A DNA stretch of 64,000 nt, taken from NCBI GenBank assembly GCA_012837525.1, contig DUQZ01000013.1:1-64000 (forward strand), read 5' to 3'. Shown piece after piece: positions 9,902-25,404 of the stretch. The number at the start of each line of letters is the position of its first letter. Positions within the stretch are counted from its first letter, which is position 1. Origin of the DNA: Clostridiales bacterium (lineage in GTDB: Bacteria; Bacillota; Clostridia; Christensenellales; Aristaeellaceae). Below the pieces are notes generated by a model. The model was given only the letters and a program-made list of their open reading frames with translations, made no database searches and had not been told where the DNA came from. The position numbers were made by a program, and so were the translations under genes.

Positions 9902-10864
9902 CTACTTGCGCTTGATTAGGTCCTGCGCCACCTGGACGATGTGTTCCTTGGTCAGGCCAAAGCGCTGCTGCAGGTAGTCCTGCGGGCCAACCTCGCCGTA
10001 CTCGTCCTCCACCGCGACACAGGCCGCCGGCGTGGGATGGTGGAAGGCCAGGGCCTCACACACCGCGGCGTAGAGGCCGCCAATCTTGTTGTGGTTCTCT
10101 GCCACCAGCACAGCGCCGGTCTTTTTGGCGCTGTGAAGCAGGCCTTCTACATCCAGCGGCTTGATGGTGAACATGTCCAGCACCTCGGCATGGATGCCCT
10201 GCTCTGAAAGGATGCGGGCAGCCTGCAACGCCTCATGCACCATGATACCGCAGGCGATGATGGTGAGGTCACTGCCCTCCCGCAGACGGATGGATTTGCC
10301 CACCTCAAACGCGCTGCCCTCGTCATAGACCTTGGCGTTTTGCTTGCGGCCCACGCGGATATACTTGACGCCCGGCCGCTCAATGAGCTGCGGCAGCAGG
10401 GTTTTAAACATCACGGTATCGGTGATGTCCAGGATGGTGGCCGTCGGAATGGCGCGGTAGAGCGCCACATCCTCAAAGGGCATGTGAGTGCCGCCGTTGA
10501 AGGCCGCGCACACGCCGGGGTCGGTGCCGATGACGGTGATGTCATTGCCGGCATAGCCCGCGGACAGGAAGACCTGGTCAAAGCTGCGGCGGGAGGCGAA
10601 GGGACCGAAGGTGTGGGCGATGGGTTTGAACCCGCTGGCGGCCAGGCCGCCCGCCACGCCCATCATGTTGGCCTCCGACACCCCCATGTTGATGGCGCGG
10701 TCCGGGTGCTCCTGGTGGTATTTGTAGGTCCCGATGGTGCTCATCAAATCAGCGTCCACGTAGATCACATCCGGGTCGCTCTCCAGCAGGCGGATGATGG
10801 TTTGGCCGATCACATCCTTGAACGTGCGGGGATCCAGGGAACCGTCGTATACAATCTTAGGCAT
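9902..10864 (-). CDS. Transketolase, C-terminal subunit
   Basis: Carries the pyrimidine-binding and C-terminal domains of a split transketolase; it pairs with the product of the preceding gene to form a thiamine-diphosphate enzyme that moves a two-carbon ketol between sugars. Length is 320 residues. Catalytic Glu64 sits in G-V-S-E. Residues matching the substrate-phosphate pocket of classical transketolases appear conserved by eye: Arg13, Ser42, a T-H-M-P histidine and the arginine in R-V-G-R-K. The start is ATG 10864, with GGAGG upstream, overlapping the stop of the N-terminal subunit by 8 bases, so translation is coupled. It is the last gene of the operon. Inferred role: use of 2-deoxy-5-keto-D-gluconate as ketol donor, with an aldose phosphate as acceptor. 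A housekeeping pentose-phosphate role is the alternative. Confidence 0.85.
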   Translation of the reverse strand: MPKIVYDGSLDPRTFKDVIGQTIIRLLESDPDVIYVDADLMSTIGTYKYHQEHPDRAINMGVSEANMMGVAGGLAASGFKPIAHTFGPFASRRSFDQVFLSAGYAGNDITVIGTDPGVCAAFNGGTHMPFEDVALYRAIPTATILDITDTVMFKTLLPQLIERPGVKYIRVGRKQNAKVYDEGSAFEVGKSIRLREGSDLTIIACGIMVHEALQAARILSEQGIHAEVLDMFTIKPLDVEGLLHSAKKTGAVLVAENHNKIGGLYAAVCEALAFHHPTPAACVAVEDEYGEVGPQDYLQQRFGLTKEHIVQVAQDLIKRK

Positions 10865-11711
10865 CAAAAACACCTCCGTCCATCGCCGCGATCTGATCGC
10901 GCAAAATTTGCACCCAACCCTGGATGACCTCGGGCTTGGGGGTCATGGAGTGGTTGCTGAAGGTGTCCTCCACCTCCTTGATGCCAGCGCCCTTGATGGT
11001 GTCCAGCACAATGGCGTGCGGCCTGCCCTTGACCTCTTCACAGGCCTGTATCGCGCGCAGCACTTCTTCCACGCTGTTGCCCTTGACCTGCTGGGTGTGG
11101 AAGCCAAAGGCCTCCATCTTGGCGGCGAAGCTTTGCGGGTCGTTGATGTCAGCCACAAAGCCGTCCAGCTGTTTTTTGTTCCAGTCAATCAGCACGGTGA
11201 GGTTGTCCAGCTTCTGGGCCGCCGCGAACATGAAGGCTTCCCAGGGCTGCCCTTCGTTGAGTTCCCCGTCGCCGACAATCAGGTACATGCGGCTGTCCCG
11301 TCCCTTGAGCCGGTCCCCCAGCGCCATGCCCACCGCCAGCGAGGTGCCCTGGCCCAGGGAGCCGGTGGTCATGTCCACGCCCGGTGTCTTTTTGCGGTCG
11401 CAGTGGCTGGGGAAATTGGTGCCCGGCTGGTTGAGCGTCAAGATGTCCTCGTAGGGGAAGTAGCCTTTGAGCGCCAGCGCCGCGTAGACGGCTGGGCCTG
11501 CATGGCCCTTTGAGCACACCATCTTGTCCCGCTCCGGCCACTTGGGGTTGTTTGGATCCACCCGCAAAATGGCGCCGTACAGCACAGCCAAGGTATCCGC
11601 CACGCTGAGCGAGCCGCCAACGTGGCCAAAACCGCGGGCCTGGATGGCCTCCATCGCGCCCAGGCGAATCTGTGCCGCCAGTTTCTTGAGCGCGTTTACA
11701 TTGTTTGTCAT
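10857..11711 (-). CDS. Transketolase, N-terminal subunit
   Basis: Binds the diphosphate end of thiamine diphosphate and contributes active-site histidines. The 284-residue product shows G-F-G-H-V-G-G-S (His30), S-K-G-H-A-G (His70), T-G-S-L-G-Q-G and the metal/TPP motif G-D-G-E-L-N-E-G (about 148-154). Start is ATG 11711 with AAGGAGG. It lies 16 bases after the LarA-like gene and overlaps the C-terminal subunit gene. Split transketolases often belong to dedicated catabolic operons; the sulfo-transketolase pathway for sulfoquinovose is a known case where the donor carries a sulfonate instead of a phosphate. That precedent supports, but does not prove, a carboxylated donor here. Confidence 0.87.
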   Translation of the reverse strand: MTNNVNALKKLAAQIRLGAMEAIQARGFGHVGGSLSVADTLAVLYGAILRVDPNNPKWPERDKMVCSKGHAGPAVYAALALKGYFPYEDILTLNQPGTNFPSHCDRKKTPGVDMTTGSLGQGTSLAVGMALGDRLKGRDSRMYLIVGDGELNEGQPWEAFMFAAAQKLDNLTVLIDWNKKQLDGFVADINDPQSFAAKMEAFGFHTQQVKGNSVEEVLRAIQACEEVKGRPHAIVLDTIKGAGIKEVEDTFSNHSMTPKPEVIQGWVQILRDQIAAMDGGVFDA

Positions 11712-11727
11712 CACATCCTCCTTGTTG

Positions 11728-12993
11728 TCACTGTGCTGGCGCTTCACCCTTCACGCGGGGCAGGGTGGACCCGCCATAGGGCATGGCCAGTACAGTCGCT
11801 GATTGACCCAATTTCAAAAACGCGTGGTCCAGCGCCTGCTGCACCGTGGCAAACGGCGTCAAAAAGCAGCTGCGTACCAGCACGTCGTCCATGTCGCTTA
11901 CCAGGTAGATGTCCGCGTTTTGCAGCACCAACGCGATGGCCGCGGCCTTGTGCCCGCCCAGTTCAAACTGGCGCGTGACACGGTCGATCAAGTCCTGGGG
12001 CGTCTTTGCCTCCTTCACCCAGCGGGCGAAGGTGTCATCCCCCAGCCCTTCGGCGCAGGAGCCCGCGACGATGATGATGCCGCCCGGTTTGACGGCGTGC
12101 TTGGCGTTGTCCAGCGCCTTTTGCGTCTGGTAGAGGTTTAAATCCTTGGGCGCGCCGCCCTGGGAGACAATGACGATGTCCGCGCGCTGGTCAATCTCTT
12201 TTAAATAAAACGCGTCCAGAAACCGGCAGCCCTCCCGGTGGGCTAGGACGCTGTCGCCCGCCACCGCCTTCACGATACGCTTGTGCTCATCCAGCACCAC
12301 ATTGAGGATGAAATCCACACCGCAGACCGCGGCGCCTTCCTCAATGTCCTCCCGGATGGGGTTGCCGGAAAGCCGGCCCGCGCAGGCATCCGGCTGCACC
12401 ATCATCTGGTGGTTGCGCTCGATGGCCTCCTTGGTGGATACGCCCGGCATGATGGCCTTGCCGCCGCCGGAGTAGCCGGCGAAGTAATGGTACTCGATAT
12501 TGCCCAGGCAGATGCGCCGGTCGGCCTGCGCCACGTGGCGGTCAATATCAATGGGCGTGCCGGCCTTGGTATAGCCCATGTGAATGACATCCTCCTGGCT
12601 GGAATCCACACAGCGGATTTTGTCAAAGGCATAATCCCCCACCAGCTTGCGCTGCTCCTCCTTGGTGTGCGCGCGGTGAATGCCCAGGCCAAACACCAGG
12701 GTGATGTCCTTTAAGTCTACCCCCGCTTTTTCCAATTCCTCAAGCAGAGCGGGCATGACGGTGTGGGTGGGCATGGGCCGGGTGATGTCGCTGGTGATGA
12801 TGGCAATTTTCTCCCCCGGTTTCACGATGTCCTTTAACCTGGGGCTGCCAATGGGCGACTTCAGCGCCCGGCGGACTTCCTCCTCACCAGTTAGGCCCAG
12901 CGTGACCTCGTTGTGCGTCAGGACACCCAGCAAGTTTTGCTCCGGCACCTTGACCGTGTCCACACGGTTTCCGATCGCGAATGCTATGTTCAT
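11728..12993 (-). CDS. Nickel-dependent lactate racemase (LarA) family protein, predicted malate racemase
   Basis: LarA homologues racemise 2-hydroxy acids with the nickel-pincer nucleotide cofactor. The 421-residue length fits LarA. Key residues are visible: catalytic His106 (in I-H-R) and His169 (Y-H-Y-F-A-G-Y-S-G-G), the cofactor lysine Lys179, nickel-ligand His195 (R-N-H), and the substrate-site run L-Y-Q-T-Q-K (Tyr288, Gln289, Lys292). LarA homologues acting on malate are known. In this operon the expected substrate is D-malate, giving L-malate; that is inference. The cofactor genes larB, larC and larE are not in the window. Start ATG 12993 has GAGGA upstream and overlaps the PGK-like stop at 12990 (ATGA). 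Confidence 0.85.
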   Translation of the reverse strand: MNIAFAIGNRVDTVKVPEQNLLGVLTHNEVTLGLTGEEEVRRALKSPIGSPRLKDIVKPGEKIAIITSDITRPMPTHTVMPALLEELEKAGVDLKDITLVFGLGIHRAHTKEEQRKLVGDYAFDKIRCVDSSQEDVIHMGYTKAGTPIDIDRHVAQADRRICLGNIEYHYFAGYSGGGKAIMPGVSTKEAIERNHQMMVQPDACAGRLSGNPIREDIEEGAAVCGVDFILNVVLDEHKRIVKAVAGDSVLAHREGCRFLDAFYLKEIDQRADIVIVSQGGAPKDLNLYQTQKALDNAKHAVKPGGIIIVAGSCAEGLGDDTFARWVKEAKTPQDLIDRVTRQFELGGHKAAAIALVLQNADIYLVSDMDDVLVRSCFLTPFATVQQALDHAFLKLGQSATVLAMPYGGSTLPRVKGEAPAQ

Positions 12994-14255
12994 AGGGTTT
13001 CCTCGCCAAAGGCTTTCGCCGCGTGACGCAGCGCCTTCACCACCGGCAATTCCTCCCCGGTAAGGAAGCGGATCAGCGCCCCGCCACCGGTGCAGATATA
13101 GCTGATGGACGCGGTTTTCTGGTATTTGCTTGTGGCCGTGATGCTGTCCCCGCCGCCCACGACGGTGTGGGCCTTCGTGTCGCCCAGGGCGTCCCACACA
13201 ATGCGGGTGCCCAATTCCGTCTGCTCCTGCTCAAACACGCCCATGGGGCCGTTGACAAAGACGGTGCTTGCCGCGCGGATGATATCGGCATAGGTTCTGG
13301 CGGTTTGCTCGCCAATGTCCAGCGCCGCAGCGTCTTCCGGCAGATCCTTCGGCGCCGCTTCGTGCCTGCGCCCGCCTTCAAGATAGGCCAGGGTGTCCGG
13401 CAGCACCAGCTTGCCGCTGTGCTTTGAAAGCAGGTCTTTCGCGGTTTGCACCATCTCATCCAGGCCCAGTTTGCGCAGGGTGTCCTCACTGCCGCTGCCG
13501 ATTGGCTCCCCCTTGGCTTTGAGCAGAATATTGGCTACCAACCCGCCGGTCAACACCTGGTCCGCAGCACCACTTGACAGCACACTGTCCATCATCCCAA
13601 AGGCATCGGCCACCTTGGCACCGCCCAGCACAAACACGCAGGGGCGCTCTGGCTGCGCCATCAATTCTGAGATGACCACGTACTCCCGCTCAAACAGGCG
13701 GCCCATCATGGAGGGCAGCACCTGCTCAAACCCGCACAGGCTGGGCTGGTCGCGGTGCGCTGCCGCGAAGGCGTCACACACGTAGTAGTCCATGAGCGGC
13801 GAAAGTTTGCTCACCACCTGGGTCTGTGCCTGCTCCTCATGCGTCAGGCGCAGTTTCATTTCAAACAGCGTCTGCTCCTCCGCGCAAAAGCGCACGTTGT
13901 CCAGCAGCAGGATCTCACCAGGTGTCAGCGCCTTGATCTGCGCCCTGGCAGCGGGGCCGCACACATCGTCCACAAAGCGCACGGGGCGGCCCAGCAGATT
14001 GCTGAGCACCTCCGCGTGCGGCTGTGTGGTGTAGTAATTGTTGTACTCAATGTCCGAGCCCTGGTGCGCCAGCAGCACCAGTTTGGCGCCGCGCTCTGCC
14101 AATTCGCGAATGGTGGGCAAACTGGCCTCTATGCGGGCGGTGGATTTCAGCGTGCCCGTTTTGCGGTCAATGGGCTGGTTGATGTCTACCCGGCACAGCA
14201 CCGTCTTGCCCGACACATCATAGGTGTCCAGGGTGTTGATGCCAAAGCGCTTCAC
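12990..14255 (-). CDS. Archaeal-type phosphoglycerate kinase homologue, predicted malyl-phosphate kinase
   Basis: The 421-residue sequence follows archaeal phosphoglycerate kinases: R-V-D-I-N-Q-P, an A-H-Q-G segment, F-V-D-D-V-C-G-P-A-A-R, L-L-L-D-N-V-R-F, D-A-F-A-A-A-H-R, V-L-G-G-A-K-V and V-V-G-G-G-D-S. Arg22, Arg41, His64, Arg122 and Arg168 of the basic patch are kept. The arginine that normally follows two positions after the H-x-x of this motif (H-x-x-R-P) is replaced: here it reads A-H-Q-G-S-D (63-68). Loss of that substrate-phosphate contact fits a substrate bearing a carboxylate. Start is GTG 14255 overlapping the GAPDH-like stop (GTGA). Inferred reaction: malyl 4-phosphate plus ADP to D-malate plus ATP. 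A true 3-phosphoglycerate kinase is the alternative. Confidence 0.85.
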   Translation of the reverse strand: MKRFGINTLDTYDVSGKTVLCRVDINQPIDRKTGTLKSTARIEASLPTIRELAERGAKLVLLAHQGSDIEYNNYYTTQPHAEVLSNLLGRPVRFVDDVCGPAARAQIKALTPGEILLLDNVRFCAEEQTLFEMKLRLTHEEQAQTQVVSKLSPLMDYYVCDAFAAAHRDQPSLCGFEQVLPSMMGRLFEREYVVISELMAQPERPCVFVLGGAKVADAFGMMDSVLSSGAADQVLTGGLVANILLKAKGEPIGSGSEDTLRKLGLDEMVQTAKDLLSKHSGKLVLPDTLAYLEGGRRHEAAPKDLPEDAAALDIGEQTARTYADIIRAASTVFVNGPMGVFEQEQTELGTRIVWDALGDTKAHTVVGGGDSITATSKYQKTASISYICTGGGALIRFLTGEELPVVKALRHAAKAFGEETL

Positions 14256-15304
14256 TTTTTGAACCTGCCGATGCGCAGGTATTCGTTGGTTTTGGCGGTA
14301 CCTTCCTCGCGGGTGGCCTGCGTTTTCATAGCCGCGCGCACCGCGTCCAGGGTTTCGGGGATGGTGACCGCCTCCTGTGGGATGTTGATGGCAAACATGA
14401 TGTCATCGCCTGATTCCACCACGCTGTCCTTCCACAGGGCGATCTCATACATGTCCCCGCGGCGGCCGCCCAGGTCCCGCGCGTAGCGGAACAAGCTGGC
14501 GTTGCCCAGGAAGCCCTCGTCGATGGAGACCACGCGGATGCGGGGATGCGCCTCAAACACCTCCAGCGCCTGATCCTTGGTGATCTTGCCGTTTTTGCCG
14601 GAGGCCAGCACCGTGATGATGTGCCCATGGGTGACCGGGGTGTGCACCAGGATGCCGGTCGCCTCCACGTGGGGCATGATGGTCATCAAGTCCACCGCCT
14701 GGTGGCTGGGCGCCTTTTCCATCTGCAGCGCGTTGGTGAGCCCGCGGTGATAATCGCCCGGGTCCGCCACGCGGCGGATGATGGTGATGGCCACCTTCTT
14801 CAGGCCAAAGGCGCGGTCCAGCGCGTCCACCGCGCGGATGAGGCCGGTCGTGTTGCAGCTGGTCAATTTCAGGTAATCCACACCCAAGCCCGCCTCATAA
14901 TTGGCGTACCCGTGGAAGAAGACATCGGCCACAGAGTTTTTCTCCCCGCCCTGGAAGACCGCCTTTTTGTTATATTTCTCATACACCAGTTTGTTCTTGG
15001 CGCCAACGCCGCCGGGCGCTGAATCCAGCACGATGTCGGCTTTTTGCACCAGGTCCTCAAAGCTGCCGGCGACCGGGATGCCCAGCGCGTCAAACTGCGC
15101 CTTATCGGCCCCGTCCACCAGATACAGCGGGTAGGTGATGCCGTTTGCGCCCTGCATGTCGTTTTCATACAGCGCGCGGATGGCCAGCGTGGGCGCGATG
15201 TCCGCGATGCCGACCAGTTCCATATCGCCTTGCAGGGCCACGCCGTCCGCCAGCCGCTGGCCAATGACGCCATACCCGGCAACCGCTACTTTAATTTTAC
15301 TCAT
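14252..15304 (-). CDS. Archaeal-type (type II) glyceraldehyde-3-phosphate dehydrogenase homologue
   Basis: NAD(P)-dependent phosphorylating aldehyde dehydrogenase of the archaeal GAPDH class, 350 residues. Visible features are the nucleotide-binding G-Y-G-V-I-G at 10-15, catalytic Cys150 in S-C-N-T-T-G-L, Arg177-Arg178 followed by V-A-D-P, and a histidine pair in T-H-G-H (226-228). From family memory, archaeal enzymes have S-H-H-G-P-D and a T-x-x-M-H-x-H motif; here they read S-H-Q-A-V-D and T-H-G-H, so the substrate pocket may differ. Start ATG 15304 has AAGGAG. It is followed by the PGK-like gene with a 4-base overlap, as expected for two consecutive steps. Inferred substrate: 3-hydroxy-4-oxobutanoate, giving malyl 4-phosphate. 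Confidence 0.85.
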   Translation of the reverse strand: MSKIKVAVAGYGVIGQRLADGVALQGDMELVGIADIAPTLAIRALYENDMQGANGITYPLYLVDGADKAQFDALGIPVAGSFEDLVQKADIVLDSAPGGVGAKNKLVYEKYNKKAVFQGGEKNSVADVFFHGYANYEAGLGVDYLKLTSCNTTGLIRAVDALDRAFGLKKVAITIIRRVADPGDYHRGLTNALQMEKAPSHQAVDLMTIMPHVEATGILVHTPVTHGHIITVLASGKNGKITKDQALEVFEAHPRIRVVSIDEGFLGNASLFRYARDLGGRRGDMYEIALWKDSVVESGDDIMFAINIPQEAVTIPETLDAVRAAMKTQATREEGTAKTNEYLRIGRFKK

Positions 15305-15353: not shown

Positions 15354-16367
15354 TTAGTCCTGCACCTTGACAGGCGCGCCGCCCTGCTCATAGCTTTTTT
15401 GGGCCGCGATGGCAATCTTCACCGGCTGCAGGCCGTCAAAAGCGCCCACTTCCACCTCTGTGCCGTTTAGGCAGGCGTCCACAAAGCTGCGGGTTTCCTC
15501 CACAAAGGCTTCGTTGTAACGCTCCAGGAAGAACCACAGGGGTTTTTCCATGGTGACGGATGCCGCCGTATAATGCACCGTGTTGTTGGCCCGCTCGTTA
15601 TCCGCGGTGATGCAGCCCTTGGAACCAAACACCTCAATGCGCTGGTCGTAGCCGTACACCGCCTGGCGGCTGTTGTCTATCACGCCCAGAGCGCCGTTTT
15701 TGAAGCGCAGCGAAATGATGCAGGTATCCACATCCCCTTCCTTGATGATGTCGGGGTTGACCAGGCCCGCGCCAAAGACGGAGACTTCCTCCACTTCGCT
15801 GCCGGTCAAATAGCGCACCATGTCAAAATCGTGGATGGTCATGTCCATGAAGATGCCGCCGGAGCTTTTGACATAGCTCAGCGGGGGCGCTTCCGGGTCG
15901 CGGGATGTCACCTTGACGATGTGCACATCCCCCACGCCGCCGTCCTGGACAATTTTGCGCACGTGCTTGAAGTTGCGGTCAAACCGGCGGTTAAAGCCCA
16001 CCTGGTACTTGACGCCCGCCTTCTTGACCTCCGCCAGCACCTCTTCAATCCTGCCCAGGTCGTGGTCAATGGGCTTTTCGCAGAAGATGTGCTTGCCGGC
16101 CTTGGCCGCAGCGATAGAGATGGGGTAGTGCATATCGGTGGAGGCGCAGATGAACACCGCGTCCACTTCGGGGTCTGTGAGCAGCTGGTTGTAATCATCA
16201 AAAACCTTGGTAACGCCGTGCTTATTGGCAAGGTCCTTCGCGGCCTGCAGGTTGACATCCGACACCGCCTCCAGTTTAGCGCCCGGCACCCGGTTGACCA
16301 GGTTGTCCGCGTGCAGCTTGCCGATGCGCCCAGCGCCGATGACACCGATTCGTAATTGCTTGTCCAT
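15354..16367 (-). CDS. iolG: Inositol 2-dehydrogenase
   Basis: Oxidises myo-inositol to 2-keto-myo-inositol (scyllo-inosose) with NAD+, first step of inositol breakdown. The 337-residue Gfo/Idh/MocA-type protein has the Rossmann motif G-A-G-R-I-G (11-16), the catalytic Lys98 in E-K-P, and the Asp175 and His179 pair in M-D-M-T-I-H-D-F-D-M, all typical of IolG. Start ATG 16367 has AAAGGAG upstream. It lies 11 bases after iolD and 49 bases before the GAPDH-like gene. The neighbours iolD, iolB and iolE make the inositol assignment firm; another cyclitol could also be accepted. Confidence 0.9.
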   Translation of the reverse strand: MDKQLRIGVIGAGRIGKLHADNLVNRVPGAKLEAVSDVNLQAAKDLANKHGVTKVFDDYNQLLTDPEVDAVFICASTDMHYPISIAAAKAGKHIFCEKPIDHDLGRIEEVLAEVKKAGVKYQVGFNRRFDRNFKHVRKIVQDGGVGDVHIVKVTSRDPEAPPLSYVKSSGGIFMDMTIHDFDMVRYLTGSEVEEVSVFGAGLVNPDIIKEGDVDTCIISLRFKNGALGVIDNSRQAVYGYDQRIEVFGSKGCITADNERANNTVHYTAASVTMEKPLWFFLERYNEAFVEETRSFVDACLNGTEVEVGAFDGLQPVKIAIAAQKSYEQGGAPVKVQD

Positions 16368-16378
16368 TGTTCTCTCCT

Positions 16379-18301
16379 TTAATATTGTCTGGCCTTTTTG
16401 ACCTGGTTTTCATGATGTTCATACGCCTTGCGGTTGGCTTCCTTTTGCGCCACTGCCACCGAGCCCACGCGCCACCAGGCGTCATAGCCGTCGGTCATGG
16501 ACTTGGGGATGACCTTGATGTCAAACAGCACGGGCTGGTCCTTGACCGTGAGGGCATCCTGTACCGCCGCCTCCAGTTCATCCAGCGTGCGGATGGTATA
16601 GGCGCGGGTGCCGTAGCCGCGCGCGATGGCGGCATAGTCCACGTGCAGGAAATCCCCGTCGTGCTTGCCATCCGCCCCGCGGAAGCGCAGTTCGGTGCAC
16701 AGGCTGTCATTGCCCTGATCCACCTGCAGGTTGTTGATGCAGCCGTAGCTTGCGTTGTCAAACAGGCAGATATTGATCTTGAGCCGCTCCTGCACCGCCA
16801 GCAGCAACTCGGAGTGCAGCATCACGAAGCTGCCGTCCCCCACCATGGAGTAGACCTCCTTGTCGCCCACAGCCAGCTTCTGGCCCACCGCGCCGCAGAT
16901 CTCATAGCCCATGCAGGAGTAGCCGTACTCCATGTTGTAGCTGTCCGGGGTCTTAGGCCGCCACATGCGCTGCATGTCCCCCGGCAGGCTGCCGGAGGAG
17001 CCGATGACCACCGCGTCTGTTGGAATTAAGTGGTTGATTTTGCCCAGCGCCGCTGTTTGTGTAAGCACGCTGTCCAAATCCTGCGCGAACTTCTGCGCCG
17101 AATCGGCGTTGGCGTCGTTGATCAGCGGCGGCTGCCCCTGGCCATAGGACATGCCATCCAGGCGCGCCAGCTCCGTAAGCCACCTGTCCTTTGCCTGCTT
17201 GATCTCATCCTGGTATCCCGTATTGTAATCATCCAGCGCGCCCTTGAGCGCAACGAGCGCTTCCCGGGCATCCGAGAGCACCGGAACGCCGTCAAACTTG
17301 ATGGCCTGGGCGGGTGACATGGTGATGTTGACAAACCGCGCCTCCTGGTCAAACAGGGATTTGGAGGCGGTGGTGAAATCGGTATAGCGGGTGCCCACAC
17401 CGATAATCAGGTCCGCCTGCGCGGCAATCTCATTGGCGGCGGCGCAGCCTGTGACCCCGATGCCGCCCAGGTTGAGCGGATGATCCCACACAACGGCGGA
17501 CTTGCCCGCCTGGGTCTCCCCAAAGGGAATGCCAAAGGCTTCCGCGAAATCACGGAAGGCGTCATGGGCCTCGGAATAGCGCACGCCCCCGCCGCAAATT
17601 AAGAGCGGTTTTTTGGCGCTGCGGATGGCGTCCGCGGCCTGCTTGATGGCATACGCCGTTGGCGGCCTGCGCTCCAGCACATGGACGCGCTTTGTAAAGA
17701 AGCTTTCCGGGTAATCATAGGCCTCGCCTTCCACATCCTGGGGCAGGGCAACGCAGACAGCGCCGGTATCCGCCGGGTCAGTCAGCACGCGCATGGCGTT
17801 GAGCATGGCGCTCATGAGCTGCTCCGGCCGCTGGACGCGGTCAAAATAGCGGCAGACGGCGCGGAAGGCGTCATTGGTGGTGGTGCCCGCGTCGTGGATG
17901 TGCTCGATTTGCTGCAGCACAGGGTCAGGCTGGCGGCAGGCGTAGGTATCGCCGGGCAGCACCAGCAGGGGGATGTTGTTGGCTGTGGCGGTGGCGCAGG
18001 CGGTGACCATGTTGGCAGCGCCAGGCCCGACGGAGGAGGTGGCGGCGAAGATTTGCTTGCGCTTCATCTGCTTGGCGAAAGCGACCGCGGCGTGCGCCAT
18101 GCCCTGCTCGTTTTTGCCCTGGTAGATCTCAAGCCGTTTGCGCTCCTGCAGCAGCGCCTGCCCCAGGCCAACCACATTGCCGTGGCCGGGCAGCATGAAC
18201 ACGCCGCGCACAAAGGGCTGCTCCTGATTGTCCCAGGCCAGGTACTGGTTCTCCAAAAAACGCACCAAGGCCTGGGCCATGGTTAATCTGACTGTTTTCA
18301 T
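16379..18301 (-). CDS. iolD: 3D-(3,5/4)-trihydroxycyclohexane-1,2-dione acylhydrolase
   Basis: Thiamine-diphosphate enzyme that opens the cyclohexane ring by hydrolysing the diketone to 5-deoxy-D-glucuronate. The 640-residue length and sequence match IolD of the acetolactate-synthase fold: N-terminal G-N-V-V-G-L-G-Q-A and E-Q-G-M-A-H-A-A, central G-P-G-A-A-N-M-V-T, and the C-terminal TPP motif G-D-G-S-F-V-M-L-H. Start ATG 18301 has GGAGG upstream and overlaps the iolB stop by 4 bases (ATGA). Third reaction in the pathway, between IolE and IolB. Confidence 0.93.
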   Translation of the reverse strand: MKTVRLTMAQALVRFLENQYLAWDNQEQPFVRGVFMLPGHGNVVGLGQALLQERKRLEIYQGKNEQGMAHAAVAFAKQMKRKQIFAATSSVGPGAANMVTACATATANNIPLLVLPGDTYACRQPDPVLQQIEHIHDAGTTTNDAFRAVCRYFDRVQRPEQLMSAMLNAMRVLTDPADTGAVCVALPQDVEGEAYDYPESFFTKRVHVLERRPPTAYAIKQAADAIRSAKKPLLICGGGVRYSEAHDAFRDFAEAFGIPFGETQAGKSAVVWDHPLNLGGIGVTGCAAANEIAAQADLIIGVGTRYTDFTTASKSLFDQEARFVNITMSPAQAIKFDGVPVLSDAREALVALKGALDDYNTGYQDEIKQAKDRWLTELARLDGMSYGQGQPPLINDANADSAQKFAQDLDSVLTQTAALGKINHLIPTDAVVIGSSGSLPGDMQRMWRPKTPDSYNMEYGYSCMGYEICGAVGQKLAVGDKEVYSMVGDGSFVMLHSELLLAVQERLKINICLFDNASYGCINNLQVDQGNDSLCTELRFRGADGKHDGDFLHVDYAAIARGYGTRAYTIRTLDELEAAVQDALTVKDQPVLFDIKVIPKSMTDGYDAWWRVGSVAVAQKEANRKAYEHHENQVKKARQY

Positions 18302-19101
18302 TCTCTTGCCTCCGGGTTGAAGATATGGTCATTGGCGTCGGGCTGCCACAGCCACTCGTACCCAGGGTCATCAATGCGGGTCTTGCGCCAGGGCTCTCCA
18401 TCCAGGTGGCGGATGCCCCACACATAGCACTGGCAGTAGCCAGGCGCGGAGGTTTGGGAGTGGAAGCCGTCCAGGATGACCGTTAAGCCGTTGTGGCGGG
18501 AGGTATGCACCTCCCCGTTGGCAAAGCTGGCGCCAAAGCCGTTGGGGTAGTCAAAGCGGTGGAAATACACCTCCGGCTGCGGATGGTGGTGGGGCGGGTA
18601 GCTGGACCATTTGCCGGGGAAGTTGAGCACCTCGCCCAACACCATGTTGCTATAGGGCGCGGATTCATAATCATAAAAGGTTTTGATGTTGCGGCGCATC
18701 GCCCCCAGCAGCTCGCCCTTGTTGCCCGCTTCCTGCACCATGACATCCTTTGGCGTAAACAGCCTGGGCTCGTAGTCCCGCTTGTTGTGCGCGGCCTGGT
18801 GGTACAGTTCCGCGTGCGTAAGCGCCTTGACCTTGACCGGTGTGCCCTTTGGCACCAGCAGGCAATAGCCTTCATCCACAAAGGGGTTCTTACGCTGGGC
18901 GGTTTGATGCCGCTCCCCCCAGAAAAATTCCACCTGCCCTTCGAACAAAAGCAGCGACACTTCCTTGTCCGCCTCCAGGCAGGACCATTCCTGCCCGGGT
19001 TCCAACACCAATAACCCCACATCCATGTTGACCTCGGGGTTGTTTTCACAGGTGAGGTAGGCGTTGTAGCCGGGCTTGATTTGAGGTTGCAGATAGGCCA
19101 C
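18298..19101 (-). CDS. iolB: 5-deoxy-glucuronate isomerase
   Basis: Cupin-type isomerase that converts 5-deoxy-D-glucuronate to 2-deoxy-5-keto-D-gluconate (DKG). The 267-residue length matches IolB. The metal-binding region P-P-H-H-H-P-Q-P-E-V-Y is visible, followed by F-H-R-F-D-Y-P-N-G-F-G. Start is GTG 19101, five bases after AAGGAGG; the longer upstream frame runs inside iolE. It begins 10 bases after the iolE stop and overlaps iolD. Its product is the branch point: the usual DKG kinase and aldolase are missing from the operon. Confidence 0.92.
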   Translation of the reverse strand: MAYLQPQIKPGYNAYLTCENNPEVNMDVGLLVLEPGQEWSCLEADKEVSLLLFEGQVEFFWGERHQTAQRKNPFVDEGYCLLVPKGTPVKVKALTHAELYHQAAHNKRDYEPRLFTPKDVMVQEAGNKGELLGAMRRNIKTFYDYESAPYSNMVLGEVLNFPGKWSSYPPHHHPQPEVYFHRFDYPNGFGASFANGEVHTSRHNGLTVILDGFHSQTSAPGYCQCYVWGIRHLDGEPWRKTRIDDPGYEWLWQPDANDHIFNPEARE

Positions 19102-19111
19102 GTCGTCCTCC

Positions 19112-20011
19112 TTACAAGCCCGCGTGCTCGCGGATAAAGCGGCGCGCCTTGATGGCGTACTCAAGCGGGTTGGCACGTGCGGGGTCCTGCTCGGCCTCTA
19201 CCAGCAGCCAGCCCTCATAGCCGGCCTTGGACAGTTTTTCAAAGATGGGGTCAAAATCCACACAGCCATCGCCCGGCACGGTGAAAGCGCCTTTGCGCAC
19301 GGCCTTCAAAAAGCTCCAGCCTTCGGGCTTCACCCTGTTCACCACCGCGCGGCGCATGTCCTTTAAGTGCACATGGCCCACCCGGTCGGCGTATTTTTCA
19401 AGCATGGTCAGCGGGCTTTCACCGGCGAAGGTAAAATGGCCCGTATCATAGCACAGCCAGACATAAGCCGGGTCGGTATTGGCCAGCATCCGATCGGTCT
19501 CCTCCGCGGTTTGCACTACGGTGCCCATGTGGTGGTGGAAGCACAGCTTAAAGCCACGCTCCTTCGCCGCCTTGCCCAGCTTGTTGAGCCCTTCGCAGAA
19601 GGTGTCCCACTCCGCATCCGTCATCACATGCTTGGCGTCGCCCAAAACAGGGGTATCCACCTGCCCCTGGATGGAGTAGCTTTGCTCGGACACGTTGATC
19701 CGGTTGGCGCCCACAGCGGCCAGGAAATCCAGCTCCTTCAAAAACTCCGCCTCTACCTCTTCATAAGGCTTGGTCAGCAGAAAGCTTGAAAACCAGCGCG
19801 AGGCTACGCGCATGCCGCGCAGGTCCAGCTCCCGCTTGAGCTCCCCGGGGTCTGTTGGGTACTTGTTGCCGATCTCCGTGCCGGTGAAGCCGGCCAGCGC
19901 CATTTCGCTGACGGTCTGGCGGAAGGTGTTCTCCGCCCCCAATTCGGGCATGTCGTCATTGCACCAGCCGATGGGCGCGATGCCCAGAAATACCTTTTCC
20001 TGATTGAACAA
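19112..20011 (-). CDS. iolE: Inosose dehydratase
   Basis: Dehydrates 2-keto-myo-inositol to 3D-(3,5/4)-trihydroxycyclohexane-1,2-dione. The 299-residue protein is a xylose-isomerase-like TIM barrel with the N-terminal G-I-A-P-I-G-W-C-N-D-D-M typical of IolE, and metal-site residues in C-F-H-H-H-M-G, C-Y-D-T-G-H and H-V-H-L-K-D. The best start is TTG 20011, preceded by AAGGAGG and aligned with the family N-terminus; no ATG fits. It lies 16 bases after the permease gene and 10 bases before iolB. Confidence 0.92.
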   Translation of the reverse strand: MFNQEKVFLGIAPIGWCNDDMPELGAENTFRQTVSEMALAGFTGTEIGNKYPTDPGELKRELDLRGMRVASRWFSSFLLTKPYEEVEAEFLKELDFLAAVGANRINVSEQSYSIQGQVDTPVLGDAKHVMTDAEWDTFCEGLNKLGKAAKERGFKLCFHHHMGTVVQTAEETDRMLANTDPAYVWLCYDTGHFTFAGESPLTMLEKYADRVGHVHLKDMRRAVVNRVKPEGWSFLKAVRKGAFTVPGDGCVDFDPIFEKLSKAGYEGWLLVEAEQDPARANPLEYAIKARRFIREHAGL

Positions 20012-20027
20012 GTGTTTGTCCTCCTTG

Positions 20028-21065
20028 TTATAGTGTCGCGAGTTTGCGAGCGCGGGCTTCCACCTTGCCGCGGGTGACGTCAATGGTGACCGCCAGGATG
20101 ATGACGGAGCCAATGACGATGTACTGGATGTCGTTGCCGGCGCTGAACAGGTTGAGCCCGTTGCGGATGGTGGAAATCAGCAGCGCGCCCAGCATGGTGC
20201 CCCAGATGGTGCCCTTGCCGCCGCGGAAGGATGCCCCGCCGATGATGCAGGCGGCGATGGCGTCGGTATCATAGGTGGCGGCAGAGGCCGTGTTGGCGGT
20301 GTTCAGCCGCCCGGCCAGCACCACACCCGCGATGCCGCACATCAAGCCCGAGATGGTGTACACCACCGTGAGCACGTTTTTGGAGCGGATGCCCGACATC
20401 CTGGCGGCCTCCGGGTTGCCGCCCACGCAGTAAATTTGCCGGCCAAGAGCAGTATGGTTGAGAAACACATGAAACGCAAGGTATACCAGCAGCACCAGAA
20501 TAAAGCTGGCCGGGAAGCCCTCCAGCAGCTTGACGCCAAAGATGTTGACATCAAAAGTGCTGCGCCCAATCCACAGCACATCGTCAATGCCCTTGTTTGT
20601 AAAGCCGATGGTCTTGGATGATGTGATCAAAAGGGCTAAGCCCCACAAGACATTTTTCATCCCCAGGGTGGAGACAAAGGGGTGCGGCAAGTCCAGCCTG
20701 GTGAGCAGCGTGCCGTTCATGAAGCCCGCGAAAGTGGATACCAAAATCGCCGCGGGGATTAAAATCCACGCGCTGGTGATGCCAAAGTTTTGCATCAGCA
20801 CGCCGATGGTGCAGGTGGCCAGAATGGCGTTGTAGCCCACGGACAAATCAATGCCGGCGGTTATGAGCGCCAGCAGCATCCCGCTGCCGATTAAGCAGTT
20901 GACCGCGGTTTGCTTTAAAATGTTCATCTGGTTGGCCATGCTGATGAAGCGGCCCGGACGGGTGAAGGCGAAGATGACATACAGCAGCGCCAACACCATC
21001 AACGGGCCCAGTTTCATGAGCAGATCACCCAGGTTGCTTTTTTTCTTGGCAATGGGCTGTGTCAT
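20028..21065 (-). CDS. Sugar ABC transporter permease (RbsC-like)
   Basis: Membrane subunit of a monosaccharide importer of the ribose/xylose/inositol class. The 345-residue protein has about ten hydrophobic segments and the conserved run L-I-T-A-G-I-D-L-S-V-G near residue 70, plus a G-x-x-x-A-A-C-I-I-G-G loop typical of RbsC. Start ATG 21065 overlaps the ATPase stop by 4 bases (ATGA). With the ATPase and binding protein upstream and inositol genes directly downstream, myo-inositol is the likely substrate. Confidence 0.88.
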   Translation of the reverse strand: MTQPIAKKKSNLGDLLMKLGPLMVLALLYVIFAFTRPGRFISMANQMNILKQTAVNCLIGSGMLLALITAGIDLSVGYNAILATCTIGVLMQNFGITSAWILIPAAILVSTFAGFMNGTLLTRLDLPHPFVSTLGMKNVLWGLALLITSSKTIGFTNKGIDDVLWIGRSTFDVNIFGVKLLEGFPASFILVLLVYLAFHVFLNHTALGRQIYCVGGNPEAARMSGIRSKNVLTVVYTISGLMCGIAGVVLAGRLNTANTASAATYDTDAIAACIIGGASFRGGKGTIWGTMLGALLISTIRNGLNLFSAGNDIQYIVIGSVIILAVTIDVTRGKVEARARKLATL

Positions 21066-22567
21066 GCGATTTCTCCTCCCCAGGCTGCTTTCATAATATC
21101 ATGCTGGTTAAAATGGTCACTGTCCCGCGCGATCTCCGCCATCACGCGGCCTTCGCGCATCACGATCACCCGGTCCGCCATGCCCAGCACCTCCGGCAGT
21201 TCGGAGGACACCATAATCAGGCACTTGCCCTCCTTGACCAGGCGGTTCATCACGTTGTAGACCTCGATCTTGGCGCCCACATCAATGCCGCGGGTGGGCT
21301 CATCAAAAATAAAAATATCCGCGTCGCAATTGGTCCATTTGCCGATGACAACCTTTTGCTGGTTGCCGCCGGACAACTGCACCACCACCTCGTTGATGCT
21401 GGGGGTTTTGATGCGCAGAGTGCGCACGTTGTCCTCGCTCACCTGGCGGATGTGGTGATGGTTCAAAAGTGGCCCGCGGCGGTATTTCTTCATGTTGGCC
21501 ATGGTGAGGTTTTGCCGCACAGGCAGGGACAGCACCAGGCCCTGGCCCTTGCGGTCCTCGGTCAAAAAGGCGATGCCCCGGCGGATGGCCTCCCCCGGGT
21601 TTTTGATGTTGACCTTCTCGCCCTTGATGTACAAGTCCCCGCTGTCCAGCTTGTCCGCGCCAAACACAGCGCGCATGGTCTCGGTGCGGCCGGCGCCCAC
21701 CAGGCCCGCGAAGGCCAGCACCTCGCCGCTGTAGGCTTCAAAGCTGACATCCCGGAGCACCCCTGCCTGGTTGAGCCCAACGGCTTTCAAGTAGCAGCTG
21801 CCCTTCACCCCGAATTCCTTGGGGTACTGGTTGTCCAGGCTGCGGCCGACCATGCCCTGGATCAGTTTGTCCTCATCAAGGTTTGTGATGTCGTCCGTCA
21901 ATACATGCTCCCCGTCCCGCATCACGGTGACGCGGTCGCACAATTCAAACAGCTCATCCAGTTTGTGGGAGACGAACAGGATGGCGATGCCGCGGTCCCT
22001 AAGCCTGCGCACCGTATCCATCAGGTGCTTGACCTCCTGCTCGCCCAGGGAGCTGGTGGGCTCGTCCATGATGATCAGCCGGGCGTCCTGGGTGACCGCC
22101 TTGGCGATCTCCACCATCTGCTGCAGGCCGATGCCCAGCTTGCCGCACTCCATTTTGGTATTGATTTCCGCGTGGCCCAGGGTGCTCAGCGCCTCGTGGG
22201 CGATGCGGTGCATCTGGGGGTAATCCAACAGCCCAAAGCGGTTTGTCGGCCTGCGGCCCATGAACACATTGTCCACCACGGGTAGCATGGGGACGATGTT
22301 CAGCTCCTGATAGACACAGGCGATGCCCGCTTCCATGGCCTGAACCGGGTTGCGGAAATTGACGCGCGCCCCATCTACATAGATTTCGCCTTCCTCAGGG
22401 ATATGAATGCCTGTGAGCACCTTGATCAAGGTGGACTTGCCCGCCCCGTTTTCCCCAACCAGGCCATGGATTTCGCCGGGCTTGATCTGGATGTGCATGT
22501 CGCGCATCGCCACCACACCCGGGAACTTCTTGGTTACGTGTTTAAGCTCTACTACATATTCGGCCAT
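21062..22567 (-). CDS. Sugar ABC transporter ATP-binding protein (RbsA-like)
   Basis: Energises the importer. At 501 residues it contains two fused nucleotide-binding domains, as in RbsA/MglA. The first has Walker A G-E-N-G-A-G-K-S-T and a Walker B ending I-I-M-D-E-P. The second has a degenerate Walker A (G-L-V-G-A-G-R-T-E), a clear signature L-S-G-G-N-Q-Q-K and Walker B I-F-D-E-P. The weak second P-loop is normal for this subfamily. Start is ATG 22567. A strong hairpin (22618-22648) separates it from the binding-protein gene and may lower its expression. Confidence 0.9.
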   Translation of the reverse strand: MAEYVVELKHVTKKFPGVVAMRDMHIQIKPGEIHGLVGENGAGKSTLIKVLTGIHIPEEGEIYVDGARVNFRNPVQAMEAGIACVYQELNIVPMLPVVDNVFMGRRPTNRFGLLDYPQMHRIAHEALSTLGHAEINTKMECGKLGIGLQQMVEIAKAVTQDARLIIMDEPTSSLGEQEVKHLMDTVRRLRDRGIAILFVSHKLDELFELCDRVTVMRDGEHVLTDDITNLDEDKLIQGMVGRSLDNQYPKEFGVKGSCYLKAVGLNQAGVLRDVSFEAYSGEVLAFAGLVGAGRTETMRAVFGADKLDSGDLYIKGEKVNIKNPGEAIRRGIAFLTEDRKGQGLVLSLPVRQNLTMANMKKYRRGPLLNHHHIRQVSEDNVRTLRIKTPSINEVVVQLSGGNQQKVVIGKWTNCDADIFIFDEPTRGIDVGAKIEVYNVMNRLVKEGKCLIMVSSELPEVLGMADRVIVMREGRVMAEIARDSDHFNQHDIMKAAWGGEIA

Positions 22568-22617
22568 CCATTTACCTCAACCGTCATTTGCAGGCCTTTC
22601 ACAATGTGTCTAAAACG

Positions 22618-22648
22618 CCGGCAAGAGCCCTATGTGGGCTCTTGCCGG
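22618..22648 (-). terminator. Intercistronic hairpin between binding-protein and ATPase genes
   Basis: A perfect 13-bp stem (22618-22630 / 22636-22648) with a 5-nt loop. On the minus strand only GTTTTA follows closely, so it is a weak terminator or an mRNA-stabilising hairpin rather than a full stop. On the plus strand it is followed by a T5 run. It could keep the binding protein more abundant than the membrane subunits. Confidence 0.6.
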
Positions 22649-22658
22649 TTTTTGTCAC

Positions 22659-23579
22659 TTATTTAGCCAGGTATTCTTCGAAATTGTCCTTGTTGATGAT
22701 GACTGTATCAACCACCACGTTGTCTTCCACCGCCTCGCCCTTTAAGGCCTTCAGCGCGGTTTCAACGGACAGGTAGCCCATCAGTTTGGGCTGCTGGGCA
22801 ACGGTACCGGCCAGGTCGCCGGACGCGATCAGTTCCACAGCGGACTGGTTGCCGTCAAAGCCCATGATGGTGACGCCTTCGCGGCCAGCCGCCTTCACAG
22901 CGTTGAGCGCGCCGATGGCAGTGTCGTCGTTGTGGCACAGCACCAGGTTGATCTCCGGGTTGGCGACCAGCTGGTCTTCCATGACCTTGGTGGCGCCGTC
23001 GGTGGTGTTATTGCCGGACAGCATGGCTACGGCTTCCAGGCCGGCCTCTGCCAGCGCCTGCTCGTAACCGGCCTTGCGCAGGTTGGAGGTGTTGTCGCCT
23101 TCCTGGCCGTAGATGATGAGGGCTTTGGTGTTTTCTTTCCCGACCAGTTCAATGCCGTACACACCGCCAGAGTGGGCCGCGACCTGGTTGGAGGTGCCAA
23201 CGAAGGACACCTTCTTCTCATAGGGCGCGTCGGTATCACAGAAGATGACCAGGCCTTCGTAGCCTGTGTTGTTGATGGCGCCGATGACGGCGTCGCCGTC
23301 CAGAGGCGCGATGATGATGGCGTCCGGTTTGGCTGCCATCTGGGTTTCCAGCTGCTGCACCTGCTCGGCGATTTCGGTTTCCGCGGCAGGGCCTTGCACA
23401 TCGATGGTCAGCCCGAATTCGGCCGCTGCCTCATCGATGCCGCTTTTCACCGTCTGCCAGTATTCACTGGAGAGGGTCTTCAGGTTGACAACGATGGTGT
23501 AGTTTGGCGTTTCCGCCAGGACAGTCGTCAGGGAAAGAAGGAGGGCGAAGGTCAACAGGGTTGCCAAGAGTTTCCGCAT
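22659..23579 (-). CDS. Sugar ABC transporter substrate-binding protein, likely inositol
   Basis: Periplasmic-binding-protein type (RbsB/Peripla_BP_4 fold) that captures the sugar outside the membrane. The 306-residue product has a signal peptide (residues 1-22, M-R-K-L-L then a leucine-rich core, cleavage near V-L-A-E). No lipobox cysteine is present, which is unusual for a Gram-positive binding protein. The mature part shows P-D-A-I-I-I-A-P-L-D-G, C-H-N-D-D-T-A-I-G-A and M-G-F-D-G-N, typical of the fold. Start ATG 23579 has CAGGAGG. It is the first gene of the operon, with a promoter at 23676-23702. Confidence 0.87.
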   Translation of the reverse strand: MRKLLATLLTFALLLSLTTVLAETPNYTIVVNLKTLSSEYWQTVKSGIDEAAAEFGLTIDVQGPAAETEIAEQVQQLETQMAAKPDAIIIAPLDGDAVIGAINNTGYEGLVIFCDTDAPYEKKVSFVGTSNQVAAHSGGVYGIELVGKENTKALIIYGQEGDNTSNLRKAGYEQALAEAGLEAVAMLSGNNTTDGATKVMEDQLVANPEINLVLCHNDDTAIGALNAVKAAGREGVTIMGFDGNQSAVELIASGDLAGTVAQQPKLMGYLSVETALKALKGEAVEDNVVVDTVIINKDNFEEYLAK

Positions 23580-23642
23580 TGGTAATACCTCCTGATATAT
23601 TATTGTGTGGAATGTCTCCACATCAACATCTTTGTCCGTCTC

Positions 23643-23662
23643 GTCTGATGATTCACTCAGAC
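23643..23662 (-). promoter_or_regulatory. Candidate operator downstream of the inositol promoter
   Basis: Inverted repeat GTCTGA / TCAGAC separated by 8 bases, placed just after the predicted transcription start of the operon. Position suits a repressor site. No regulator gene is adjacent, so the factor is unknown. Confidence 0.35.
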
Positions 23663-23675
23663 CGCTGTCATCTAT

Positions 23676-23702
23676 GCTATAACGAATCAAGGGGTCTGTC
23701 AA
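23676..23702 (-). promoter_or_regulatory. Promoter of the inositol operon
   Basis: Minus strand TTGACA at 23697-23702 and TATAGC at 23676-23681 with a 15-bp spacer; TAGCAT two bases downstream would give 17. It lies about 100 bases before the first gene. Confidence 0.55.
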
Positions 23703-23730
23703 GGCGAACCACGCCTTGAATACAGGGTGC

Positions 23731-23761
23731 AAAAAACCCAGAAACACTTGTGGTTTCTGGG
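23731..23761 (-). terminator. Terminator of prfC
   Basis: A 9-bp stem CCCAGAAAC (23737-23745) with GTTTCTGGG (23753-23761). On the minus strand TTTTTT follows; T5 follows on the plus strand too. Confidence 0.75.
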
Positions 23762-23802
23762 TTTTTGGGATTGTGGTTTGATACAGGGCTGTGTGAAATC
23801 TC

Positions 23803-25404
23803 TCAGGCCTCAAACTCCTCCATAGGTTCGATTTCGTTGAGGATGAGCCCGGGGTTTTTCTCCTCCGCCAGACGGATGGACCAGTCGTTTTCAAAAAAGA
23901 GCACGGGTTTGCCCTGGGCGTCCACGCCGCGCGCGGTGCTGGAGGTCAAGGCCAGGCGATCCACCGGGACTGGCGTTTCGACCACCCAGCGCACAAAACG
24001 CCAGGGCAGCATGTCCATTAACAGCTCAGTGCCGTATTCGTGCTTTAGGCGGTGGGAGAGGACATCAAACTGCAGCACGCCCACCACGCCCACGATGCTT
24101 TGCTCCAGGCCGATCTCGTCCCGGGTAAAGGTCTGGATGGCGCCCTCGTTGCTCAATTGCATGATGCCCTTTAAAAACTGCTTGCGCTTCATGCTGTCAA
24201 AGGGGCGCACGCGGGCAAAATGCTCCGGCGCGAACACGGGGATGCGCGCGAAGTGCAGGTCCTTTTGCTGGCTGATGGTGTCGCCCAGGCGGTAGATGCC
24301 CGGGTCAAACAGGCCGATGATGTCACCGGGATAGGCGGTTTCCACAATGGCGCGCTCATCCGCCATGAACTGCTGGGGCGCCTTTAGTTGAATCTGCTTG
24401 TTCTGGCCGGAGTGCCAGGCGCTCATGTCGCGCTTGAACACGCCGGAGACGACGCGCACAAAGGCCAGGCGGTCGCGGTGCGCCGGGTTCATGTTGGCCT
24501 GGATTTTAAAGACAAAGCCGGAAAAATCCGGGTTTTCGGGCGTAATCATGCCCTGGTCGCTCGCGCGGGGCGTGGGCGGCAGGGTGTAGTTTAAAAAGCG
24601 GTTGAGGAAGGGCTCCACCCCAAAGTTGGTGATGGCTGAGCCAAAGAACATGGGGGTCAGTTCGCCTCTGCGGATAGCGTCCAGATCAAAGGAGTCGCCG
24701 GCTTCGTCCAGCAGCTCGACCTCCTCTTTAAGGCGGTTGATGTAGTGCCCGGCCAGCATGCCGGGGAGGGCAGGGTCTGACAGGGCGATCTCCGTCTTCA
24801 CCGCCTTGGTCTTGCCGTGGTCGCCGGAGAAATACAGTTCCACCGTCTTGGTATCGCGGTGGTAGACGCCCTGGAAATCCCCATCCACGCCAATGGGCCA
24901 GTTGACCGGGCAGGCGCGGATGCCCAGCACCTGTTCCAGCTCCTCCATGAGGGCAAAGGGATCCTTAGCCGCGCGGTCCATCTTGTTGACAAAGGTAAAG
25001 ATGGGGATGCCGCGCATGCGGCACACCTTGAACAGCTTGCGCGTCTGCTCCTCCACGCCGCGGGAGGCGTCCAGCAGCATGACCGCGCTGTCCGCCGCCA
25101 CCAGCACGCGGTAGGTGTCCTCGGAGAAATCCTGGTGCCCAGGCGTGTCCAGGATGTTGATGTGGTAGCCGTAAAAATTAAACTGCATGGCAGAGGAGGT
25201 GACCGAGATGCCGCGCTGCTTTTCAATCTCCATCCAGTCAGAAGTGGCATGGGCCGCGGCCTTGCGCGCCTTGACGCTGCCCGCCTGGCGGATCGCCCCG
25301 CCGTAGAGCAGCAGCTTCTCCGTCAGCGTGGTCTTGCCCGCGTCCGGGTGGCTGATGATGGCGAATGTGCGCCGCCGCGCGATTTCCTTTAGCCGCTCGT
25401 CCAT
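23803..25404 (-). CDS. prfC: Peptide chain release factor 3
   Basis: GTPase that recycles release factors RF1 and RF2 from the ribosome after termination. The 533-residue product has the RF3-type G domain: S-H-P-D-A-G-K-T-T (G1), D-T-P-G-H-Q-D-F-S (G3), N-K-M-D-R (G4), followed by the RF3-specific P-I-G-V-D-G-D-F-Q-G-V and the C-terminal G-V-V-G-V-L-Q-F-D-V. Start ATG 25404 follows GGAGGG; the frame extends to 25431 without a better site. A near-perfect promoter is at 25441-25469, so it is transcribed alone. Confidence 0.95.
   Translation of the reverse strand: MDERLKEIARRRTFAIISHPDAGKTTLTEKLLLYGGAIRQAGSVKARKAAAHATSDWMEIEKQRGISVTSSAMQFNFYGYHINILDTPGHQDFSEDTYRVLVAADSAVMLLDASRGVEEQTRKLFKVCRMRGIPIFTFVNKMDRAAKDPFALMEELEQVLGIRACPVNWPIGVDGDFQGVYHRDTKTVELYFSGDHGKTKAVKTEIALSDPALPGMLAGHYINRLKEEVELLDEAGDSFDLDAIRRGELTPMFFGSAITNFGVEPFLNRFLNYTLPPTPRASDQGMITPENPDFSGFVFKIQANMNPAHRDRLAFVRVVSGVFKRDMSAWHSGQNKQIQLKAPQQFMADERAIVETAYPGDIIGLFDPGIYRLGDTISQQKDLHFARIPVFAPEHFARVRPFDSMKRKQFLKGIMQLSNEGAIQTFTRDEIGLEQSIVGVVGVLQFDVLSHRLKHEYGTELLMDMLPWRFVRWVVETPVPVDRLALTSSTARGVDAQGKPVLFFENDWSIRLAEEKNPGLILNEIEPMEEFEA

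Follow-up and report, generated by a model that had tools for sequence, protein, structure and literature searches.

In phosphoglycerate kinase (PGK) of mammals, Arg65, Arg122, and Arg170 bind the 3-phosphate of the substrate, and His62 binds the bridging oxygen (PMC7729029). As for the degradation of inositol, a large genome survey counted iolC among the four core genes that it required and attributed its absence to incomplete data (PMC9430895). A transketolase acting on a ketose with another anionic group in place of the phosphate is known from the sulfo-transketolase pathway for sulfoquinovose (SqwGH), where the C2 unit is passed to a sugar phosphate (PMC11659671), and a member of the LarA family, Mar2, has been assayed as a malate racemase (PMC7583248). 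In the window, i.e., the whole stretch of 64,000 nucleotides of Clostridiales DNA analyzed in this study, we noticed a PGK homologue that is encoded among genes for inositol degradation, transketolase, GAPDH, and LarA (Table 1). We consider it likely that this homologue serves as the ATP-forming last step in a phosphate-free copy of the transketolase-GAPDH-PGK segment, which would give D-malate from 2-deoxy-5-keto-D-gluconate (DKG) and replace IolC and IolJ.

Table 1. Coordinates of the operon and of the changed PGK segment in the window
Feature	Position	Strand	Basis
Split transketolase, C-terminal subunit	9902..10873	-	PF02779/PF02780
Split transketolase, N-terminal ThDP-binding subunit	10857..11747	-	PF00456 165.8 bits; best solved relative 6yak, a split transketolase
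LarA homologue, nickel-dependent malate racemase, LarAH6/Mar2 group	11728..12993	-	NF052593 573.7 bits, cut-off 500; Mar2 6d6z 402 bits
PGK homologue of 421 residues; D-malyl-phosphate:ADP phosphotransferase (reverse of a D-malate kinase) as proposed function	12990..14255	-	PF00162 378 bits
A-H-Q-G-S-D, codons 63-68 of the PGK homologue	14052..14069	-	3-phosphate-site Arg/Lys missing at residue 67 (14055-14057)
Archaeal-type (type II) GAPDH homologue; proposed phosphorylating D-malate-semialdehyde dehydrogenase	14252..15304	-	NF003251 383.9 bits, cut-off 185
iolG, inositol 2-dehydrogenase	15354..16367	-	TIGR04380 462.7 bits, cut-off 355
iolD, trihydroxycyclohexanedione hydrolase	16379..18301	-	TIGR04377 882.6 bits, cut-off 715
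iolB-like isomerase, divergent	18298..19176	-	TIGR04378 89.1 bits, below cut-off 205; PF04962 147.9 bits
iolE, inosose dehydratase	19112..20113	-	TIGR04379 406.9 bits, cut-off 290
Sugar-type ABC transporter: permease 20028-21065, ATPase 21062-22567, binding protein 22659-23894	20028..23894	-	ORF sequences, gene order

The operon and its PGK homologue

The open reading frame of the PGK homologue runs on the minus strand from a GTG start at 14255 to a stop at 12990 and overlaps both of its neighbors by 4 bases: namely, the GAPDH gene at its start and the LarA gene, which starts at 12993, at its stop. GAPDH, IolG, IolD, the IolB relative, IolE, and the ABC transporter are encoded upstream of PGK, and LarA and the split transketolase downstream. 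IolD, IolE, and IolG, which belong to the classical pathway, all score above their cut-offs; the IolB relative falls below that of its family, and DKG as the intermediate therefore rests on context. The IolB-like isomerases in related clusters are only moderately similar to the protein encoded at 18298-19176. The ABC transporter, homologues of which adjoin several related clusters, is probably for the uptake of inositol. Separate housekeeping genes for PGK, GAPDH, and transketolase are found elsewhere in the genome, which rules out the operon PGK as its only PGK, and the genome also encodes LarE (for the nickel cofactor) and malic enzyme.

The AlphaFold model of the homologue (pLDDT 90.8) is confidently a PGK, with the changed loop 69-71 at pLDDT below 50. 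Its best match in Foldseek, and also its best solved relative, is an archaeal PGK, 2cun (TM 0.87/0.90, E 1.4e-42, 41% in the alignment). The fold and the Pfam profile are thus those of PGK (EC 2.7.2.3), while the basic patch composed of three Arg residues and His62 is incomplete, the equivalent of Arg65 being Ser67. A sequence-only reading of the window had described A-H-Q-G-S-D at residues 63-68 with the other residues of the patch retained, and this holds for the minus-strand frame: R122, R168, and H64 are the equivalents of mammalian Arg122, Arg170, and His62, while D24, N26, and R41 correspond to Asp23/Asn25 and Arg38, and all of these together with R22 are invariant among the 81 clade sequences aligned. 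The same reading had taken H-x-x-R-P as the rule for PGK, which turned out to be too strict; a basic residue is indeed general at this position and is lost here, but Arg is not obligatory, given that 2cun has HQGKP, with Lys at the lost position, and that Lys is found in 14 of 30 housekeeping PGKs. Another change that this reading had overlooked, from the human catalytic Lys219 to Ala218 in all 92 operon PGKs, is probably an archaeal-type trait because 2cun has Ser at that position.

We then compared the position of residue 67 between clade 1, for which eighty relatives were taken from genome contigs, clade 2, which was found in a class sample of 293 genomes (41-46% identity), and reference PGKs. 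In the alignment, Ser (80) or Gly (2) occupies this position in clade 1, Asp (10) in clade 2, and Arg (20) or Lys (2) in the references; furthermore, the housekeeping PGKs of 30 genomes carrying a clade-1 PGK have Arg (16) or Lys (14). A basic residue is missing from all 92 operon PGKs, whereas each of the 52 housekeeping or archaeal PGKs has one, and the change does track the operon, as the sequence-only reading had proposed to check. Sequencing error or a lone odd genome is ruled out as the cause, since the loss is shared by all 92. The proline beside the lost residue is also replaced, by Asp in clade 1 and by Thr in clade 2, and Tyr71 and Asn73, new invariants nearby (92/92), are candidates for a new contact. 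In a phylogenetic tree, both clades group together (98/93) beside the archaeal PGK and apart from the bacterial housekeeping PGKs, with the archaeal side represented by one sequence on a long branch.

The Foldseek list also contains 1qpg, a crystal structure of the R65Q mutant of yeast PGK. This mutant is reportedly still active on 3-phosphoglycerate, and the loss of this Arg alone would therefore not abolish that activity; the lost Arg is better regarded as a marker than as proof. Malate as the acid product, suggested earlier from the Arg loss, is well supported by context, because the change tracks the operon and relatives of the gene adjoin those for malate racemase and malic enzyme, but the loss by itself does not prove specificity.

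Altered neighbors and the absence of IolC

The neighboring GAPDH fits the profile of the type II enzymes and has the catalytic Cys (Cys150, kept in 81/81 homologues), while residues close to the active site on which the solved archaeal enzymes agree (SHH, P and T) are missing; the H, P, and T of four such archaeal structures are replaced by Q202, H221, and P223 in 81/81 homologues. These positions are presumably near the substrate and would be expected to face or bind its phosphate, and our search of the open literature on phosphate-site residues of archaeal GAPDH found nothing useful. The transketolase, similarly, possesses the ThDP and pyrimidine domains with the catalytic Glu (Glu67, 60/60) and lacks the phosphate-site His and Asp: the C-subunits of both clades have D118 at the position of human His416 and N126 at that of human Asp424 (60/60), where the references have H and D. 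We take His416 of human transketolase to contact the substrate phosphate and Asp424 a hydroxyl. The change from His to Asp would place a negative residue where a carboxylate would want a positive partner, and the distal group may thus be bound differently. All three operon enzymes (transketolase, GAPDH, and PGK) are altered at sites expected to grip the substrate phosphate.

Gene content, linkage, the absence of IolC, and the residue changes were all computed. The IolC kinase was not found in the window's genome, which is 96.6% complete and where the best match reached 78.8 bits against a cut-off of 300. In the class sample, 23 genomes have IolD over the cut-off, nine with the operon type of PGK and 14 without it, and IolC over the cut-off was detected in none of the former and in 11 of the latter (Fisher p = 0.0003). 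Among 48 further genomes with a clade-1 PGK, only one, that of L041, has IolC over the cut-off (G320:C47:21959-22930). In the remaining three IolC-less genomes of the class sample (G072, G031, and G057, with the loci L142, L143, and L144, respectively), the iol cluster contains a member of the transaldolase family together with an aldehyde dehydrogenase of the methylmalonate-semialdehyde or CoA-acylating type; inositol degradation apparently ends there in a third manner, by which DKG would be split to malonate semialdehyde. With nine genomes of the PGK type, 11 with IolC, and three of the transaldolase type, therefore, all 23 are accounted for by three endings.

A proposed route to malate and its alternatives

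In the proposed route, IolG, IolE, IolD, and IolB would lead to DKG, which, when read from C6, would present the arrangement of D-xylulose, CH2OH-CO-CHOH-CHOH-CH2, with COO- in place of the O-PO3 of xylulose 5-phosphate. The split transketolase would cut DKG between C4 and C5; a sugar phosphate would accept the C5-C6 unit, and D-malate semialdehyde (3-hydroxy-4-oxobutanoate, D configuration) would remain, which corresponds to D-glyceraldehyde 3-phosphate with a carboxylate for the phosphate. Oxidation of this aldehyde by the GAPDH homologue would then give D-malyl phosphate, an analogue of 1,3-bisphosphoglycerate, with a reduced cofactor, and the PGK homologue would form D-malate and ATP from D-malyl phosphate and ADP; the changes at the phosphate sites of the three enzymes would suit CH2-COO-. 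By LarA, D-malate would be converted to L-malate, to be used by malic enzyme or fumarase. The stereochemistry, which we derived by hand with the Fischer projection, would give D-malate first and L-malate via the racemase, the latter being needed for D-malate as malic enzyme needs the L-form. Relative to IolC/IolJ, no ATP would be spent on DKG (one saved) and one would be gained. In this scheme, we infer the substrates, the stereochemical fit, the direction, and the energy yield. No description of an inositol-to-malate route via transketolase, GAPDH, and PGK was found in open-licence papers outside bioRxiv, which is weak evidence of novelty.

PGK and GAPDH might instead be extra, ordinary isoenzymes of glycolysis/gluconeogenesis that act on 1,3-bisphosphoglycerate and handle triose and pentose phosphates made by the transketolase. 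The remaining 3-phosphoglycerate contacts are all kept in the PGK homologue, the GAPDH is above the cut-off for type II GAPDH, and yeast R65Q PGK could be crystallized (1qpg), which would be consistent with such a role; nonetheless, housekeeping copies are already present, with two PGKs in 45 of the 48 further clade-1 genomes, and ordinary isoenzymes would leave unexplained the loss of phosphate-site residues in three enzymes, the presence of malate racemase and malic enzyme, and the fate of DKG without IolC. We thus regard this explanation as unlikely.

Alternatively, the trio might use a different acid semialdehyde that ends in a carboxylate, for example that of tartrate or hydroxyglutarate, in which case the product would not be malate. 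Mar2-type LarA indeed has a side activity on tartrate (PMC11770544), and PGK and GAPDH are paired in some loci beyond the inositol operons as well (L066, L082, L132, and L133). In the 26 loci that extend for 7 kb or more to either side of PGK, we found the GAPDH homologue in all 26, LarA in 21, an iolD/E/B gene in 21, transketolase in 19, and malic enzyme in 14. Malic enzyme accompanies the module in loci both with and without iol genes, and LarA falls in the malate group, both of which speak against another acid and make it decidedly improbable. Neutral drift of a redundant PGK from Arg to Ser/Asp, without consequence for its substrate, is hardly credible: loss of this single residue is reportedly tolerated in yeast PGK (mutant structure 1qpg), but drift would not preserve A-H-Q-G-S/G-D-I/L-E-Y across four phyla and the new invariants Tyr71 and Asn73.

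Several related loci differ in their surroundings. The PGK-GAPDH pair lacks iol genes at L066, L067, and L082, and in two of these (L082:11250-16033 and L067:3516-7669) it stands beside E1, E2, and E3 subunits resembling those of pyruvate/acetoin dehydrogenase, which take the place of the transketolase; L082 also has LarA and malic enzyme. This arrangement suggests other routes to the same C4 aldehyde, which may be supplied there by a different thiamine enzyme. The clade-2 module (GAPDH, PGK, LarA, and often transketolase and malic enzyme) at L132, L133, L128, and L131 is outside a full iol cluster and adjoins zinc dehydrogenases and other transporters; a non-inositol substrate is therefore probably fed into it. 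Two cultured species, Pelolinea submarina and Desulfosporosinus metallidurans, also possess the module, at loci devoid of iol genes. Two clusters of Treponema (L012 and L014) and one of Clostridia (L028) contain iol or sugar genes together with PGK, GAPDH, and transketolase, and LarA was not found within the DNA surrounding these three loci, where D-malate might be consumed as such or released.

Returning to the proposed route to D-malate, it is about an even chance that the transketolase-GAPDH-PGK segment was recruited as a whole and adapted jointly, with carboxylate for phosphate, that it allows ATP-yielding conversion of dietary inositol to D-malate in anaerobes of at least four phyla, and that its carriers, some of them without a linked racemase, are a source of D-malate in the gut. 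D-Malate has been seen in animal guts (PMC10897302), and the route, if true, would name a microbial origin for it. It would also establish a subfamily of PGK for a new substrate and a third way of finishing inositol degradation, accounting for inositol clusters without iolC. Three consecutive enzymes altered together in the same part of the substrate pocket would, furthermore, be a clear case of joint change.

Comparison with known systems

The PGK homologue shares with the archaeal-type PGK of Pyrococcus horikoshii (2cun) the fold, Asp24, Asn26, Arg41, His64, Arg122, Arg168, and the glycine-rich nucleotide motifs, but it has no basic residue at 67, a replaced Pro68, invariant Tyr71 and Asn73, and Ala165 for Thr, and its gene is within an operon that is proposed to form malate. 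LarA of the operon is closest to crystallized Mar2 (6d6z); both exceed the curated cut-off of the same NCBIfam model (LarAH6) and have the GHK motif (LGGHKAA in the operon protein) and a Tyr after the catalytic His, whereas Lys173 of Mar2 is Phe in the operon LarA. As in the sulfo-transketolase pathway with SqwGH, a transketolase is proposed here to act on a ketose that carries another anion in place of the phosphate and to hand the C2 unit to a sugar phosphate; the mimic would, however, be a carboxylate, and the aldehyde would be carried on by the GAPDH and PGK homologues with a gain of ATP. With the classical inositol pathway (IolG-E-D-B-C-J), finally, the operon shares IolG, IolE, IolD, and a relative of IolB, by which the same ring-opened acid would be made, but IolC and presumably IolJ are replaced in this operon by transketolase, GAPDH, PGK, and LarA, and the proposed product is malate instead of malonate semialdehyde and dihydroxyacetone phosphate.
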